From: Clostridia bacterium
GTDB taxonomy: Bacteria; UBA6262; WVXT01; JAUXBS01
Assembly (NCBI GenBank): GCA_030618495.1
Contig: JAUXDE010000001.1
Location: 1 to 40,404 of the forward strand
DNA length: 40,404 nt
Direction of reading: 5' to 3'
In this document: positions 1-18,603 of the stretch, piece by piece
How positions within the stretch are numbered: the first letter of the stretch is position 1
Layout of the letters: the number at the start of each line of letters is the position of its first letter
Notes under the pieces: generated by a model
The model's database searches: none
Told to the model about the DNA's origin: nothing
What the model saw: the letters and a program-made list of their open reading frames with translations, nothing else
Made by a program: the position numbers and the translations under genes

Positions 1-1147
1 GCTGGGCAAGCATCAATGCCCTGTGCCTGATCTTCTTCACCTTTTCGGTAACCTGACCGGAGTAGTTATATGCCCTGGTCCCCTTCTCTCTTGAGTATTC
101 AAAAACTCCAACCCTGTCAAATCTTGTTTGGCTGACAAAATCAAGAAGCTCCCTGAACTGCCTGTCCGTCTCTCCCGGGAAGCCCGTTATCAGGGACGTG
201 CGGAGCGCTATCCCGGGAACGTTCCTCCTGAGTTTTTCTATCAACGCAACAATCTCTCTTCTTTCTATTTTCCTTCCCATCCTCTTTAGGATACTGTCAT
301 TAATATGCTGAAGGGGCAGGTCAATGTATTTACAGATTGACGGCTCTTCCTTCATGAATTCAATCAATTCATCGTCAAGGTGAGCGGGATGCGTATACAA
401 CAGCCTTAGCCACCCGCATGCTTTTATAGCAACCAGCCTTCTTAAGAGTTCAACCAGTTTCCGGCTGCCGTAGATGTCCGTGCCGTAAAAAGTTGTATCC
501 TGGGCAATCAGGTTAATTTCCGCTATCCTGTTATTATCGGAAAGTTTTCTTACTTCCTTTACAATAGAAGCCATCTTCCGGCTGCGGTATTTGCCCCTGA
601 GTCCGGGTATCAAACAGTAACTACACCTGTTACTGCATCCGTCCGCTATTTTCATGTAAACGTAATGCGAGGGTGTCAGGATATGCCTTGGATGAGACCC
701 ATTATATAAAAAATTCGGATTGGAATCAACAATAAATGGCCTACTCCTTGCCGGGGATTCATGCGGGGCGATTTTCGCGGCGCGGGACGAAGTTATTTTT
801 TTTATTATACTGTCGATTTTCGGGAAATCAGATGACCCGACAAACGCATCCACTTCACCGAAACCGTCGAGGAGTTCCTTCTTCTTATACTTCTGAGGGA
901 GGCATCCGGCAACTATCAGGTACTTTATTTTGTTCTTCTTCTTAAGTTGGGCAAGTTCAAGTATCCTGTCAACCGATTCTTTCGTCGCCTTCTCTATGAA
1001 ACTGCAGGTATTGACAATGGCTATGTCCGAACCTTCTGCGTTTTCCGAAACAATCCAACCCTTTTTTTTCAATATGCCCAGCATTACCTCGGAATCCACG
1101 AGATTCTTGGGACAACCCAGACTTATAATACTGACTTTTCGTTTCAT
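1..1147 (-). CDS. rimO: Ribosomal protein S12 methylthiotransferase RimO, 3' end outside window
   Basis: The minus-strand reading frame from the ATG at 1147 stays open to the window edge (about 382 codons; RimO is usually about 440 aa). RimO is a radical SAM enzyme that adds a methylthio group to an aspartate of ribosomal protein S12. The N-terminus carries the RimO hallmark SLGCPKNLVDSE, followed by the UPF0004 domain with its cluster cysteines (NTC, AGC) and the radical SAM motif CSNRCSYC, then YTHPAHL and LPLQHIND. The C-terminal TRAM domain would lie beyond position 1. The start codon sits two bases from the inverted repeat of the neighbouring transposase cassette, and no Shine-Dalgarno sequence is visible in front of it. 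No later in-frame start would keep the essential N-terminal cysteine motif, so this start is preferred. RimO rather than MiaB is favoured by the SLGCPKNLVDSE signature. Confidence 0.93.
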   Translation of the reverse strand, partial: MKRKVSIISLGCPKNLVDSEVMLGILKKKGWIVSENAEGSDIAIVNTCSFIEKATKESVDRILELAQLKKKNKIKYLIVAGCLPQKYKKKELLDGFGEVDAFVGSSDFPKIDSIIKKITSSRAAKIAPHESPARSRPFIVDSNPNFLYNGSHPRHILTPSHYVYMKIADGCSNRCSYCLIPGLRGKYRSRKMASIVKEVRKLSDNNRIAEINLIAQDTTFYGTDIYGSRKLVELLRRLVAIKACGWLRLLYTHPAHLDDELIEFMKEEPSICKYIDLPLQHINDSILKRMGRKIERREIVALIEKLRRNVPGIALRTSLITGFPGETDRQFRELLDFVSQTRFDRVGVFEYSREKGTRAYNYSGQVTEKVKKIRHRALMLAQ

Positions 1148-12588: not shown

Positions 12589-13536
12589 TTATTCTTTCGA
12601 AAACAGCACACTTATGTTCCTGATGTTTTGCTCCATTATCGAAAAATAGTCCCTGCCGTTTCTTGAATCTTCTCCCGACAGCGCTTCCACCGGAGAAAAT
12701 TCAATACTCCTGACGCCGGATTTTTCCAGAAAATATTTTTCAACTTCGCCCCCGGGGTAACTCTCCCATACCAGGTGCCGGATTTTATGTTTTTTTACGA
12801 AATCCCTGAAATGCCCCATGGAATGTCCCGTGGGCATCTTCTCCGGGTCAAAATCAAACGATTTCATTTTCCACCCGTACCTTCTTGCGATGTAATTATA
12901 CGCCGGGTGCGAAGCGGCAAGCATCCGGCCATTATACTTTCCCGCAAGCTCCCTGAACATGTTATCAAGTTTATCCAGCTTCCCGCACAGTTTGCCGTAA
13001 TTATTATTGTATTCTTTTTTATGGGCAGGGTCCTTTCTGATAAGAGCCTTCATGATAACCTCAGCCTGTTTCTTTGCAAGCACCGGGTCCATCCAGGTAT
13101 GGCCGTCTATCCCCGCATGCGTATGACTGCCCTCACTGCCGTGGCTGTGTGTTATGGTACCCTTGATTTCTATAAGGTTGTCTTCAAACGGTTTCGCGGT
13201 ATTTACTATCTTATCCTCCGGCAACATGACCTTCTTCACCCACTTCTCAAAACCTGCCCCGTTTATCACTATGAGGTCCGCTTTTTCCTGGTATTCCCTT
13301 ATAATCTCCCTTGATGGCATCCAGAACACAGGATCAGCGTCTTCAGGCAGGGGATTTACCACCTTCACGTAGTCACCCCCTATTATCCCGGAAAACTCAC
13401 AGGTAGGGTAAAATGTCGCATATATAACTATTTTTTTTCCGGAAGTTCCCGCTTTCTTTTCAGCGGCAGGCCCCCCGCAACCTGAAACCAGGCTCACAAC
13501 AAGCACAATGACAATCATTGGCAGTATTTTTTTCAT
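12589..13536 (-). CDS. ZnuA-like metal-binding lipoprotein (cluster A-1 substrate-binding protein)
   Basis: 315 aa. A lipobox LVSGC places the lipidated Cys at 20. The protein has the ZnuA/TroA fold markers: a His-rich loop (His130, 132, 138, 140), HTWMDP with His146, and ASHPAY with His210. The first metal ligand, normally a His in the PH-Y-P motif, is not seen: the region reads EDADPVFWMPS. The site is therefore variant, perhaps with Asp or Glu in its place. No ZnuB-type permease or ZnuC is next to it. It lies 20 bases downstream of an FtsX-like permease gene, and association with that transporter is inferred. Zn2+ or Mn2+ would be the expected ligand. Confidence 0.8.
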   Translation of the reverse strand: MKKILPMIVIVLVVSLVSGCGGPAAEKKAGTSGKKIVIYATFYPTCEFSGIIGGDYVKVVNPLPEDADPVFWMPSREIIREYQEKADLIVINGAGFEKWVKKVMLPEDKIVNTAKPFEDNLIEIKGTITHSHGSEGSHTHAGIDGHTWMDPVLAKKQAEVIMKALIRKDPAHKKEYNNNYGKLCGKLDKLDNMFRELAGKYNGRMLAASHPAYNYIARRYGWKMKSFDFDPEKMPTGHSMGHFRDFVKKHKIRHLVWESYPGGEVEKYFLEKSGVRSIEFSPVEALSGEDSRNGRDYFSIMEQNIRNISVLFSKE

Positions 13537-13556
13537 TTTCAGCTCCTCTTATAGTG

Positions 13557-14723
13557 TTAAATAAACTGCAAATACTTTACAAAAGCAACAAGGACGTTAA
13601 CAGCAACCACACTCATTCCAAAACTTATAAGGACGATTGTAAACATCTGGGTAAAGAGTATGAAGAATATTGTGTATTTACTGCTCCCTATCATCTGCAT
13701 TATATGCCTCTCGCTCTTTCTTATCTGAAGGGACAGCGTAATTATCAGTGCCAGGAATAACACCGTTGACAGGAACACGAGAAAGAAGTAGGAACTCAGT
13801 ATTTTCTGGACATTGAACACCAGTTTCATCAGGTTACCGATTATCCCTTCGGGTGTCACCGCCTGCAATGTTTCCGAAAGATTAATATTTGCCTGGAGAA
13901 TGGTCTTCTTCCTGGCGGTCTCCGGTATAACAATAATTCCCGTAAGGGGGAATCTTCCCGGGTCCCCGTGGAAATGAAACGAATCGATATTCTCCGGGGT
14001 AATCCTTGTATATTCATAAACGCTCGGGCTTCCGACTATATTATCCCTGTCCCTTGACAGTATGTCTATATCCTCCGCCTTTTTCAGATCCTTATGCCCG
14101 TGGCCTATCCCGTCTATCACCCACGTGGTCTTGATACCGGTAAAAATAACATTGTCATCCGGCGAGTTGCTTTTCTCAAGAACCCCGACAATCGACATCT
14201 GCAGGGGGTACATCGAGGAAATATTGTAAAGGCTCCCCGTATCGGTAATAATTGAATCCCCCGCCCCCAGCCCTAGTTTTCTCGAAACATTGAAACCCAG
14301 CACCGCGTCGCCCAGTACCTGCATACTGCTGCCGCTGCGCACTGCCAGGCTCCTTAGCCCGAAGTACTCCAGTGTCGTCCCGATCACCGGGTACCCCCTG
14401 GCGGTATACTTGTTGTACAGGGGAATAACCCTTCCGGCATTTTTCCCCGCAATATCCTCATACACGCTGTACTGCATTATATCAGGCGTGTCCGCTTTGA
14501 AGTAAAGAGTGTTCAGTACCAGCTGCAACGACCCGCCCTTGCGTCCTATTACAAGCGGTGTCTCCATAGCCCTTCGCGAGAGTATCTCATTGGCAAGGTT
14601 GCTTATCCTAACCGTAAACATCGGAATGAATATGCTGATGGTGATACATACAACCAGGATTATAGACATCAGCCTGTTATACTTCAGGTAATTAATTGCC
14701 AGTTTAAATATTTTTTTTATCAA
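13557..14723 (-). CDS. FtsX/MacB-like ABC transporter permease
   Basis: 388 aa. One N-terminal transmembrane helix (about 17-38), a long extracytoplasmic domain, and three C-terminal helices (about 310-385), the layout of MacB/LolC/FtsX permeases. The external domain contains two His motifs, GIGHGHKD and FHFHGD, which suggest metal contact. It begins three bases after the ATPase gene and precedes the ZnuA-like lipoprotein gene by 20 bases. The usual MacB and LolCDE systems move peptides, lipoproteins or macrolides outward or between envelope layers. Metal-linked function is inferred from the His motifs and the downstream gene. Confidence 0.8.
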   Translation of the reverse strand: MIKKIFKLAINYLKYNRLMSIILVVCITISIFIPMFTVRISNLANEILSRRAMETPLVIGRKGGSLQLVLNTLYFKADTPDIMQYSVYEDIAGKNAGRVIPLYNKYTARGYPVIGTTLEYFGLRSLAVRSGSSMQVLGDAVLGFNVSRKLGLGAGDSIITDTGSLYNISSMYPLQMSIVGVLEKSNSPDDNVIFTGIKTTWVIDGIGHGHKDLKKAEDIDILSRDRDNIVGSPSVYEYTRITPENIDSFHFHGDPGRFPLTGIIVIPETARKKTILQANINLSETLQAVTPEGIIGNLMKLVFNVQKILSSYFFLVFLSTVLFLALIITLSLQIRKSERHIMQMIGSSKYTIFFILFTQMFTIVLISFGMSVVAVNVLVAFVKYLQFI

Positions 14724-14726
14724 TCT

Positions 14727-15395
14727 CTATTCCCTGTCCTTATTGACCTTGTTAATATCAATAACCTTTCCGAAGTGCTTCATCAATGATACGTTATGAG
14801 TGACAAACAGCAGGGTGGCTTTGTTTTCTTCCACCACGTCCATCAGGAGGTTCATTATAACCTCAGCCGTTTTCACGTCAAGGTTACCCGTCGCCTCATC
14901 GCCAATAACGATATCAGGCCCCGTTACCAGCGCCCTCGCAATCGCTACCCTCTGCTTTTCCCCCTGGGAAAGCCGGGCAATATAACTCCTGCTCTTATTC
15001 CCTATATCCAGCCTGCGCAGAATAAAATCAACCTTCTTGCGCACCTTTCCATCCACATTAAGTCCCGGACTTATGTAAAAGGGCAGCAGAACATTATCCT
15101 CAACGTTCAGGTAATCAATAAGCCCGAAATCCTGGAATATGTACCCAATATTCCTTATCCTGAAATTCCTTATTTCCCTGTCGTTCTTCCTGTTGATTTC
15201 CATCTCGTTTATCCTGACCGTCCCGCTTATCGGCTTGTAAATGCCGGTTATAATATTTAAAAGGGTGGTCTTGCCCGACCCGCTGGGCCCGATGATACAG
15301 CACTTCTGGCGGTCTTCTATCCGCAGTTCTTCAATTTCAAGCTTGAAATCCGATTCTCCGGGATACCTGAATAATAGGTTTTTTATAAGTATCAT
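14727..15395 (-). CDS. LolD/MacB-type ABC transporter ATP-binding protein
   Basis: 222 aa, the usual length of a LolD-type ATPase. Walker A is GPSGSGKTT (36-44), the signature is LSQGEKQRVAIARAL (142-156), Walker B is VIGDEATGNLD (163-173), and the switch His is His200. The GNLD after Walker B marks the MacB/LolD/FtsE group. It overlaps the upstream secreted-protein gene by four bases and is followed after three bases by its FtsX-like permease. Confidence 0.93.
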   Translation of the reverse strand: MILIKNLLFRYPGESDFKLEIEELRIEDRQKCCIIGPSGSGKTTLLNIITGIYKPISGTVRINEMEINRKNDREIRNFRIRNIGYIFQDFGLIDYLNVEDNVLLPFYISPGLNVDGKVRKKVDFILRRLDIGNKSRSYIARLSQGEKQRVAIARALVTGPDIVIGDEATGNLDVKTAEVIMNLLMDVVEENKATLLFVTHNVSLMKHFGKVIDINKVNKDRE

Positions 15396-15973
15396 AAGGG
15401 CTGTCTCACTTTTTCTATAACGATTTTCTCGTCCACCTGTATTCCGTCCGGGTCATAATACCTTTTGGGAAAGATTATCCGCTCACCGCTTAAAATCTGC
15501 GTCCTGACAACCTTCCAGTCTTTATCGACCCTGCACTTCTTCAACTTGTATATTGCCTCATACGTGTTTATCCTGTTATGCTCATGAAGCAGATGCTTGA
15601 CCAGTCCGAATACCCTCCATTTAATATATACCTTGATATATTTTTTCCTTCTTTTTTCTATAATGATTTTCTCATAGTCTATTTTCTGAATATAATTCCG
15701 GTACCCCTGGGCTTCGAACTCCCTTATCGTCCTTAAGAATACAAAGAACTGTTCTTCAAGCTCTTCACCCATAAAACTGTAAGCCAGGCAGTTGTAAATC
15801 TCGTTATCCTCTGAATAATCAAATGCCTTGTATATATTGCCGTGAAGCTCCTTCAGGTTGTTAATGAATTCCTCTTCATTGAATTCCCCGCCACTCCACC
15901 CTGAAGCAAGAATCGTGATTACCAGAATAATTATTCCTGTCCGTTTCCTGTTTATAACCATTTCATTCAACAC
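15392..15973 (-). CDS. Secreted or membrane-anchored protein of unknown function in the peptide/ABC cluster
   Basis: Up to 193 aa from a GTG at 15973; the in-frame ATG at 15961 (MVINRKRTG) is an equally likely start. A single hydrophobic stretch (TGIIILVITILASG) acts as signal peptide or anchor. The mature part is charged and helix/strand mixed with no motif I recognise; ICW-type cysteine patterns are absent. The gene overlaps the ABC ATPase gene by four bases and lies 74 bases after the radical SAM gene, so it belongs to the same transcript. A periplasmic accessory role for the transporter is inferred. Confidence 0.6.
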   Translation of the reverse strand: MLNEMVINRKRTGIIILVITILASGWSGGEFNEEEFINNLKELHGNIYKAFDYSEDNEIYNCLAYSFMGEELEEQFFVFLRTIREFEAQGYRNYIQKIDYEKIIIEKRRKKYIKVYIKWRVFGLVKHLLHEHNRINTYEAIYKLKKCRVDKDWKVVRTQILSGERIIFPKRYYDPDGIQVDEKIVIEKVRQPL

Positions 15974-16047
15974 CTAATTATCCTTGCAACAGCGCCCTTT
16001 GGGAGTTTCTCACCATTTCACAAACATTCTTTCCTGCGACTAGTGCT

Positions 16048-17193
16048 TCATTTATCCCCGCTGTATGGTTTCTTGCTTATAATGGGACAATCCGGATCAG
16101 GAGAATTGAAATCCCCCGTTTCAAACTCCGCTATCACATGACACCCCCCCCTGCAGATTTCAAGGTACCCGCACTCACGGCAGGGAGAAGGGGCATTCCT
16201 GACCCAATTGCGAAACCGCTTCATGCTCCTTGAATCATGCCACAGGCGCTTCACATCGCCTTCCCACTTCTTTCTGCCGTGGCTGGCAAATGAACATCCT
16301 GCGAATCTCCCGTCAGAGAAAATCGACAGCAGTACGTCCCCCGCATAACAACCGTAAACGGCATACTTCTCCATCTCACTCCTGTCAGGATTATGGAAAC
16401 ATATCATCGGGATAAAGGAACAGTCTATTTTTACCGGAACCCCGTGTTTCTCGGAAATCCTCATTACGTGCGGGAAAAAACTCCTGTTCTGCCTGTCGTT
16501 GAGTTTCATCTTATAATACAGCTCCCTGCCCCTGCCTGAAGGCTTGAACCGCAACAACTCCACATCGTGAAGCCCATGACGGCTGGCATACTTAAACACT
16601 TCATCCAGCCTGTTGTAATTCAAGCTTGAAACCATGCAGTTTACACCGGTCTTTACCCCGGCTTTTTTTAACCTCCTTACCGCTGAATCCGCCATACTGA
16701 AATTCTCTTCATCCAGACTGTTTATGCTGATATTCACCTGACCGAATATCCTGCATTTTTCCGCAATTATTTCGTTCACATAGTAACCGTTTGTCGTGAG
16801 GTTCGGAACTATACCCACCTTCCTGGCATACTTGGCAATACTGAAAAAATCACGCCTGCTGAACGCCTCCCCTCCGCCCAGCGCCACATGGAAAACACCC
16901 ATCCCCGAGAGAGAGTCCAGCACTTTCCTGCATGAATTCAAATCCAGTTCGTCCTGCCTGCAGTCACCGGAATCCATATAGCAGTGCCGGCACTTTACGG
17001 GACAGGCATTGGTCACCGAGAAATGGACTTCAGTCGGCGCAGACAGGTAATTCCTTTTCTTTTTCCACTCAGGTGATTCGCCAAGCCCGAGCTCGCGCAT
17101 GCAGTCCCTGTCCACAAAGGCAAGCATCGGCGGGCTTTCAATCGAGATGATACCCCCAAAAGCTTCAAACCTGTAACGTAACGGCTTGCTCAT
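16048..17193 (-). CDS. Radical SAM/SPASM protein, probable peptide-modifying enzyme
   Basis: 381 aa. The radical SAM cluster motif is CPVKCRHC (Cys64, 68, 71). The glycine-rich SAM motif is GGGEAF rather than the usual GGEP. A SPASM domain closes the protein (Cys338, 341, 347, 351, 369, with CRGGC) and should carry auxiliary [4Fe-4S] clusters. The N-terminus reads RFEAFGGIISIE before the core, as seen in RiPP maturases that handle short peptides. The ATG at 17193 overlaps the stop of the 61-aa peptide gene by four bases. This coupling, and the SPASM type, make the small peptide the natural substrate candidate. Heme or anaerobic sulfatase maturases share parts of this pattern, but no sulfatase is nearby. 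Confidence 0.87.
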   Translation of the reverse strand: MSKPLRYRFEAFGGIISIESPPMLAFVDRDCMRELGLGESPEWKKKRNYLSAPTEVHFSVTNACPVKCRHCYMDSGDCRQDELDLNSCRKVLDSLSGMGVFHVALGGGEAFSRRDFFSIAKYARKVGIVPNLTTNGYYVNEIIAEKCRIFGQVNISINSLDEENFSMADSAVRRLKKAGVKTGVNCMVSSLNYNRLDEVFKYASRHGLHDVELLRFKPSGRGRELYYKMKLNDRQNRSFFPHVMRISEKHGVPVKIDCSFIPMICFHNPDRSEMEKYAVYGCYAGDVLLSIFSDGRFAGCSFASHGRKKWEGDVKRLWHDSRSMKRFRNWVRNAPSPCRECGYLEICRGGCHVIAEFETGDFNSPDPDCPIISKKPYSGDK

Positions 17194-17375
17194 TTCTTCT
17201 CCGGCTTGTCCTTTTTCCCCTGCTTCAGCTTCCTTGAAAAAATGATTCCCGTAACAATGTTGAACAGGACAGCGGACCCGAAAAGGGCGCAGGGGAAAGC
17301 CTTCAACAGCGTACCTATTGAACTTGAATTTGGATTGTACCCGGCTTTTACCTTTAATATCTTTCCTTTTTTCAT
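17190..17375 (-). CDS. 61-aa peptide, candidate substrate of the adjacent radical SAM enzyme
   Basis: A short basic N-terminus is followed by GYNPNSSSIGT (residues 12-22), a hydrophobic helix (about 26-46) with the single Cys29, and a Lys-rich tail. An AAAGGA Shine-Dalgarno sequence stands seven bases before the ATG at 17375. The stop overlaps the radical SAM start in an ATGA. The upstream gene (TPR/membrane protein) ends 43 bases earlier. The NPNSSS segment is the most likely modification site or recognition motif; Ser, Asn, Tyr and Cys29 are all chemically plausible targets. The peptide could instead be a small membrane subunit. I do not recognise a named family. Confidence 0.65.
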   Translation of the reverse strand: MKKGKILKVKAGYNPNSSSIGTLLKAFPCALFGSAVLFNIVTGIIFSRKLKQGKKDKPEKK

Positions 17376-17418
17376 CTTTTTATCCTTTATATTTCATATG
17401 TTAAATTGCACCCCAACA

Positions 17419-18603
17419 CTACTCTATTTCACTGGGTTCCCTCGTGGTGTACTTTTTAAAGATATGCGGATACTGCTCGCTGGCTGAACTCGAGTCCTCT
17501 TCGAAGAACATGAACTTCCTGTAATAGAAGCCCTCCATGTAGAAATTGCACAGGAATATCGTGATTATCGAAGTGGTAATAATTATGGAATGAACAAGAA
17601 TGGCAGGGTACTTCTTCCAGTTCCTTATCCCTGCAAATCCTGAGGCCCCTAACCACACCAGTACCATGGCAATTATACTGTATAATATGAAGTACCAGAA
17701 TTTGGAATCATCAAAAGGCCTGTACCATGGCAGGACAAATATCGGAGTCTTCAGATTATCCGGAACTTCAATACCCCGGAGCAGAGGGAATGCCCCTGAT
17801 ATATGATTTAAAAGAGGGAGCGAAAATATTACTACAGCCAGGATAAACCAGGATATCAATAACAACAGGAACAGTTTTAGCCCGGCCAGGTCAACACCGC
17901 GCCAGAACCGCATCCTTACCGACCATACAATGCAGATGAATATAAAGATGGATGCTATCCACCTGGGCATGTTTTTTTTAAAGGTAAAATGCGCCTGTTT
18001 TATATCCTTACTGAACATACTGTTTTCCCTGAGGTCCGGATTAAGCCTGTCTGCTCTCCTGCAGTACCGGTAAGAAACCAGCCACCTCCCAAGCATAAAG
18101 TACCTGCCGCCCAGCATGGCATATATTTCAGGTATCTTGTAAAAATCAGGATATTGACTGATCATGGATTTAAGTGACTTAATATCACTTTTTATTTCTT
18201 CGGGTTTCAGCTTCCCCACATACCTCTTCATCTTAAATACGCTCAAGGGTTTTCTGTACTTCTCTATTTCTTTTTCTACATGCTCCTTCCTCCTGCGCAC
18301 CTCCATAGTGTTCCGGTAACCCGGGAACTCCCCAAGGAGCTTCTTGTACATCCCCAGGGCACTCTCGTATTTCTTAAGCCTGGTCTCGCGTATAACCGCC
18401 GCCCTGTGCATGGCGTTAGCCCTTATTTTATTATTTATTCCCCTGTTGCGAGCCAGTTTACTGTATATCAACACAGCCCCGCTGACATTGCCCTTACTTA
18501 TCAGGTTCTCCGCGGTATCCAGTTTCTGTCTTATCGTCTCCGCATAAAGATTGGCATTAAACAACGTAACAAATAATGATATATATATTAATACCTTTTT
18601 CAT
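17419..18603 (-). CDS. TPR and multi-helix membrane protein
   Basis: 394 aa. A signal peptide (LIYISLFVTLFNANLYA) leads into TPR-like helices (25-200, for example GNVSGAVLIYSKLA and KYESALGMYKKLLGEFPGY). About four transmembrane helices follow between residues 215 and 370, with an external loop containing PLLRGIEV. The C-terminal tail is short and charged. It is the first gene of the run leading to the 61-aa peptide and radical SAM enzyme. It could receive, anchor or export the peptide, but this is inferred from gene order only. The ATG at 18603 has a GGATG-like Shine-Dalgarno sequence. Confidence 0.65.
   Translation of the reverse strand: MKKVLIYISLFVTLFNANLYAETIRQKLDTAENLISKGNVSGAVLIYSKLARNRGINNKIRANAMHRAAVIRETRLKKYESALGMYKKLLGEFPGYRNTMEVRRRKEHVEKEIEKYRKPLSVFKMKRYVGKLKPEEIKSDIKSLKSMISQYPDFYKIPEIYAMLGGRYFMLGRWLVSYRYCRRADRLNPDLRENSMFSKDIKQAHFTFKKNMPRWIASIFIFICIVWSVRMRFWRGVDLAGLKLFLLLLISWFILAVVIFSLPLLNHISGAFPLLRGIEVPDNLKTPIFVLPWYRPFDDSKFWYFILYSIIAMVLVWLGASGFAGIRNWKKYPAILVHSIIITTSIITIFLCNFYMEGFYYRKFMFFEEDSSSASEQYPHIFKKYTTREPSEIE

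Follow-up and report, generated by a model that had tools for sequence, protein, structure and literature searches.

Known pairs of a SPASM-type radical SAM enzyme and a peptide yield antibiotics, signals or soluble cofactors. In one of them the enzyme MftC works on MftA, a small ribosomal peptide with a C-terminal Val-Tyr core that comes from a neighbouring gene. Another SPASM enzyme, anSME, one of the founding members, turns an active-site cysteine or serine into formylglycine (PMC5682303). Here we analyse a 40,404-nt contig of a Clostridia bacterium (JAUXDE010000001.1, positions 1 to 40,404, below called the window), taken from a 1.69-Mb draft genome that is 98% complete, in which a 61-amino-acid (aa) membrane peptide is encoded next to a SPASM enzyme. 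The two lie in a run of seven consecutive minus-strand genes, all of which we confirmed as open reading frames (ORFs), and which an earlier note on this DNA had joined into one system that modifies the peptide, inserts or exports it, and handles a metal such as zinc. Our analysis divides the run into two modules: module 1 (16048-18603), with the peptide, the enzyme and a TPR-type membrane protein, and module 2 (12589-15973), with an FtsX-type ABC transporter and a ZnuA-like protein. From their sequences, the peptide and enzyme of module 1 look like an undescribed protein-modification system.

The module 1 enzyme (16048..17193, minus strand, 381 aa) carries its radical SAM motif CxxxCxxC as CPVKCRHC at residues 64-71 (Pfam Radical_SAM, 1.7e-14), after an N-terminal extension of about 45 aa that is conserved in the family, and has the seven-cysteine pattern C...GX4C ... 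CX2CX5CX3C ... C at residues 282, 300, 338, 341, 347, 351 and 369. All radical SAM and SPASM cysteines, and also C258, are invariant in an alignment of 17 members; the Pfam SPASM model stays under its cut-off for the window protein, and TIGR04085 passes in the member at locus L055. By score the enzyme does not belong to MftC, GeoRSP or PqqE, every equivalog cut-off being missed. The best NCBIfam match, MftC, reaches 146.8 bits against a cut-off of 265 (TIGR03962); the second best, the likewise undeciphered SPASM system GeoRSP (TIGR04303/04304), reaches 139.9 against 400 for TIGR04303; and PqqE, which offers the closest solved structure by sequence (6c8v, 3.3e-29), reaches 74.3 against 381 (TIGR02109). 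Of the expected companions, neither a partner SPASM enzyme nor a PqqD-like protein of the GeoRSP kind could be recognised in the seven-gene run, nor was a PqqA-like peptide or PqqD of the PQQ pathway recognised. In a quick tree without bootstrap that included 11 other SPASM proteins, the family formed one side of a branch (support 100) and the window enzyme grouped with an Elusimicrobia protein (support 91); by this placement the enzyme is a distinct branch of its own, found in about a dozen phyla. No matching pathway was found in the main text of a genome-mining survey (PMC9062424).

The peptide gene (17190..17375, minus strand; MKKGKILKVKAGYNPNSSSIGTLLKAFPCALFG..., 61 aa) overlaps the enzyme gene by four bases (17190/17193), as the earlier note had it, and its start codon is preceded by a Shine-Dalgarno-like AAAGGA. 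Its motif GYNPNSSSIG, at about 17313-17342, is the proposed modification site. In peptides of this kind the layout is GxNPNSSSxG directly before the sole hydrophobic helix, and a structure model of the window peptide consists of one helix (residues 18-54) with a low-confidence N-terminal tail. The pair resembles MftC and MftA in that a SPASM enzyme is encoded beside a small ribosomal peptide; unlike MftA, however, the present peptide is a membrane protein that carries NPNSSS in place of a Val-Tyr core and has a helix at its end. No Pfam or NCBIfam model matches the peptide, and a literature search returned no paper with the motif NPNSSS and none with ANCSS together with ‘radical SAM’.

Full-length relatives of the enzyme (42-47% identity) first turned up in another phylum, where five of seven genomes have one; in four of these five, a small ORF beside the enzyme gene encodes G-x-NPNSSS-x-G followed by a hydrophobic helix. 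An alignment of these enzymes, used as query against the genome_contigs collection (84,980 species), brought up 80 loci, with titles naming Elusimicrobia, Bacteroidales, Planctomycetota, Kiritimatiellota, Lentisphaeria, Desulfobacteraceae, Geomesophilobacter, Myxococcota, Spirochaetales, Fibrobacterota, Aminicenantes, Raymondbacteria and Delongbacteria. Since nearly all 80 come from metagenome assemblies, any one taxon label could be mistaken; that the family is spread broadly over phyla is not in doubt. When the window and other retrieved loci are added to the scan (85 loci), the peptide is encoded in the same DNA stretch as the enzyme at 73. At the level of genomes, among 386 diverse ones the peptide profile matches eight and the enzyme profile (E < 1e-100) seven, all seven within the eight; the sole peptide-only genome (G001) is a draft from the same genus, whose contig ends inside the peptide gene. 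Among 282 genomes of the phylum to which genome G256 belongs, the peptide occurs in 47 and the enzyme (E < 1e-60) in 56, and all 47 peptide genomes have the enzyme, nine genomes having the enzyme alone (hypergeometric 8e-45, uncorrected for relatedness). The window's own phylum contributes just six genomes to the searched set. In two genomes, G160 (L172/L179) and G297 (L173/L180), the peptide and enzyme genes are divergent, on opposite strands, and the link between them is therefore independent of a shared transcript.

At ten loci (L205, L206, L207, L209, L210, L213, L214, L216, L217 and L218) peptide and SPASM enzyme share one open frame with no stop, which at L217 is 402 aa in its entirety, and the peptide part always has the cysteine-type motif described below. 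Frames in high-GC DNA easily stay open, and individual fusions need checking. Yet chance is an unlikely source, because the distance from the motif to CxxxCxxC repeats (mostly 76 or 127 aa) and because the CxxxCxxC and SPASM patterns are intact in all five fusions checked. Together, recurrence over about a dozen phyla, co-occurrence genome by genome and in-frame fusion strongly support the link between peptide and enzyme that the earlier note had proposed, and the pair has the features generally expected of a precursor and maturase of ribosomally synthesised and post-translationally modified peptides (RiPPs), namely a conserved core within a small ORF and linkage to a modifying enzyme.

The motif itself points to a particular residue. 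NPNSSS is spelled by 71 different codon strings among 88 peptides, which places the constraint at the protein level. In part of G256's phylum the motif is altered (for example GRAPNCSSAG, GHSPNCSAAG, GRSANCSSIG and GHGANCSSVG), and in these PNCSS, ANCSS or PNCSA forms Ser5 has become cysteine while Asn4, Ser6 and both glycines are kept; the first asparagine and the proline are relaxed, and the third serine is sometimes alanine. This exchange of Ser5 for cysteine is the main variant class. When every ORF of the enzyme loci was searched with a profile, one further, divergent peptide came up, GYNANSGSIA; it adjoins a SPASM enzyme of the family in a Kiritimatiellota record (L087:1109-1303) and offers a natural test of which residues of the motif matter.

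We read module 1 as a membrane-localised protein-modification system in which the serine or cysteine of the motif is converted, with the ABC, FtsX and ZnuA genes standing apart from it, and give this reading a probability of about 0.58. On the evidence of the motif and its linkage, the enzyme most likely modifies that Ser/Cys: a membrane-located SPASM enzyme would oxidise or cross-link it by means of its auxiliary clusters, perhaps to an anSME-like formylglycine, perhaps to an ether, thioether or C-C link with a neighbouring Asn or Ser. Formylglycine is the simplest guess, since anSME works on Cys or Ser. As with anSME, the residue altered would be a Cys or Ser lying within a short, conserved protein motif. 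The motifs are nevertheless different ([CS]-x-[PA]-x-R for anSME, N-[SC]-S followed by Gly here), anSME is a weaker sequence match to the window enzyme (PDB 4k37, 1.2e-16), and no sulfatase was seen among the recurrent neighbours examined. The changed motif would remain at the membrane and serve there as a functional group for the TPR partner and, where the larger cassette described below is present, for its thiol-redox and phosphoesterase-like proteins.

Several observations weigh against this reading. The invariance of NPNSSS (88 of 88) is partly selected, as the seed pattern required NPNSSS. Twelve of the 85 enzyme loci have no recognisable peptide in the available DNA, and while a few of these (L058, L082, L090) are short or begin close to a contig end, the rest are not. 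The fused helix could be a simple anchor. Finally, the topology is unsettled: the N-terminal tail has a mean charge of +4.2 compared with +2.1 C-terminal of the helix, which suggests that the motif faces the cytoplasm, but the fusions need the C-terminal side inside, and with a single span the motif would then lie outside, contrary to the charges.

The main rival takes up the anchor idea: rather than being a substrate, the small protein would serve as membrane anchor and adaptor between the SPASM enzyme and the TPR membrane protein, with NPNSSS as docking motif, and the enzyme would act on a small molecule, a lipid or a tetrapyrrole. The natural fusions, which place the helix anchor-like at the enzyme's N-terminus, fit this well, as do the positive charge on both flanks of the helix and the profile scores to the tetrapyrrole SPASM enzymes NirJ, AhbD and AhbC, which are not far under the MftC score. 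Still, eight positions kept over many phyla, followed by a change from serine to cysteine at one of them, would be unexpected of a docking motif, and two different peptides often accompany a single SPASM enzyme in the larger cassette described below; we consider the anchor explanation rather unlikely, though it deserves to be taken seriously.

Much less room is left for the two explanations that draw on the rest of the gene run. That the peptide is a RiPP precursor, with its modified part cleaved off and exported as a natural product through the neighbouring ABC transporter, is suggested in the window by the small ORF overlapping the SPASM gene and by the transporter downstream. Elsewhere, however, the transporter and ZnuA genes form a conserved unit of their own and do not follow the pair, and no peptidase family is found among the recurrent neighbour clusters examined. 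The helix comes directly after the motif, and release of the peptide is unlikely because the fusions keep the motif on the enzyme. The exported peptide of the earlier note is accordingly doubtful, the peptide being a membrane protein and sometimes fused to the enzyme, and we hold this explanation to be very unlikely. Very unlikely, too, is a single zinc-linked system of seven genes peculiar to this lineage: tight spacing, a common strand and the lack of a terminator-like site between 16048 and 15973 speak for it (terminator-like sites within the run as a whole are not above shuffled expectation), against which no other genome examined shows the linkage and the relatives of the permease occur without this SPASM family. 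As a general seven-gene zinc and peptide system the proposal is rejected, as the genes do not co-occur outside the window in the genomes examined.

The first gene of module 1 (17419..18603, minus strand, 394 aa) encodes a protein with a signal-like N-terminus, a weak TPR match and about five hydrophobic segments in its C-terminal half. Homologs are present at 29 of the 85 loci by hidden Markov model search, and at many Myxococcota loci ORFs with TPR and multiple transmembrane (TM) segments, judged by hydropathy, lie directly upstream of the peptide; such a TPR/multi-TM protein is commonly a component of module 1. Ten loci (L054, L055, L057, L060, L062-L066 and L079), labelled as Bacteroidota, Myxococcota, Planctomycetota, Desulfobacteraceae and Spirochaetota (five phyla), have a larger cassette in the order peptide B, TlpA-type thioredoxin, metallophosphoesterase membrane protein, peptide A, TPR/TM protein, SPASM enzyme and DUF2950-like protein. 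Its peptides A and B are two different NPNSSS peptides, and its metallophosphoesterase is fused to a multi-TM region. A DsbD/CcdA-like C-terminal part of the phosphoesterase protein, noticed by eye (GLVDGLNPCAF), is not claimed, Pfam giving only a weak SfLAP match. Several cassettes add a second TPR protein with a purple-acid-phosphatase N-terminal domain and a helical lipoprotein, C11, of about 275 aa (L055:2140-2979 and homologs). C11 has no Pfam match and an all-helical model (pLDDT, the model's per-residue confidence score, 93), for which the fold search gave no clear match; EfeO/EfeM stand near the top of its Foldseek matches only at E about 0.4-0.7, and on a closer look these are generic helical bundles. 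A profile search found no C11 in the window's own genome. The window retains only the TPR/TM protein, the peptide and the SPASM enzyme, as do several genomes of the phylum searched initially.

Going further, we tentatively picture a membrane mini-protein whose Ser/Cys is converted for good into a new protein-derived functional group. A SPASM enzyme tethered to the membrane and dedicated to this task would make the change, and in some Myxococcota-like genomes it would bear the target motif itself, on its N-terminal tail. The modified motif would then take part in the work of a TPR/thioredoxin/phosphoesterase membrane complex that is spread over about a dozen phyla. This fuller picture is possible but doubtful.

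Module 2 is, as judged from its genes and their relatives, a separate metal-transport unit, and its adjacency to module 1 is probably accidental. It begins with a 193-aa protein (15392..15973, minus strand, like the three genes that follow) that has no family match and whose relatives elsewhere are part of, or adjoin, the product of the gene upstream of the ABC ATPase. The ATPase itself (14727..15395, 222 aa; ABC_tran 1.4e-31) is of the FtsE/LolD/MacB type. Then come an FtsX-type permease with a TTG start (13557..14723, 388 aa; FtsX 2e-4, under the curated cut-off) and a ZnuA-like metal-binding lipoprotein with a His-rich loop (12589..13536, 315 aa; ZnuA PF01297, 1.4e-50), in agreement with the metal-binding fold that the earlier note had seen. 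That note's four-base overlaps hold at 17190/17193 and 15392/15395, while 14723/14727 is a 3-base gap. Both His motifs that it pointed out in the permease, GHGHK and FHFHG, are there, and all four aligned relatives retain the GHGH and FHFHG cores.

Permease relatives 36-40% identical are found in genomes G105, G158, G242 and G282, and a more distant one in G198; they adjoin the same type of ATPase and, in most cases, also a ZnuA-like protein and one related to the 193-aa protein, with the gene order of the window in G282. These genomes contain no SPASM enzyme of the family (best scores 109-158 bits vs 642 for the window protein), and across the enzyme's loci only two ABC matches lie near it, both generic, so that the link of the transporter and ZnuA-like genes to the peptide–SPASM pair is refuted by the criterion that the earlier note itself had set. 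Module 2 has the ZnuA-type binding protein of ZnuABC/AdcABC without a ZnuB-type permease: the permease's best hit is the weak FtsX match, and there is no ZnuB/ABC-3 match. Recurring in unrelated genomes (G105, G242, G282 and G198), it is a candidate metal transporter of non-ZnuB type. A zinc importer outside ZnuABC, ZrgABCDE of Vibrionaceae, also combines an ABC ATPase and a permease with a separate zinc-binding protein (PMC9817125). It is similar in plan, but its binding protein is ZrgA/DUF2796, whereas that of module 2 is ZnuA-like. Apart from both modules, another radical SAM gene lies near the window start (134-652, minus strand; Pfam 1.4e-28).

What the module 1 enzyme appears to target is a membrane protein whose motif hardly varies across about a dozen phyla of mostly uncultured bacteria, and the Ser-to-Cys variants and the fusions single out the residue of interest. 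If the motif is indeed modified, this would be a widespread protein modification lying outside all Pfam and NCBIfam models.

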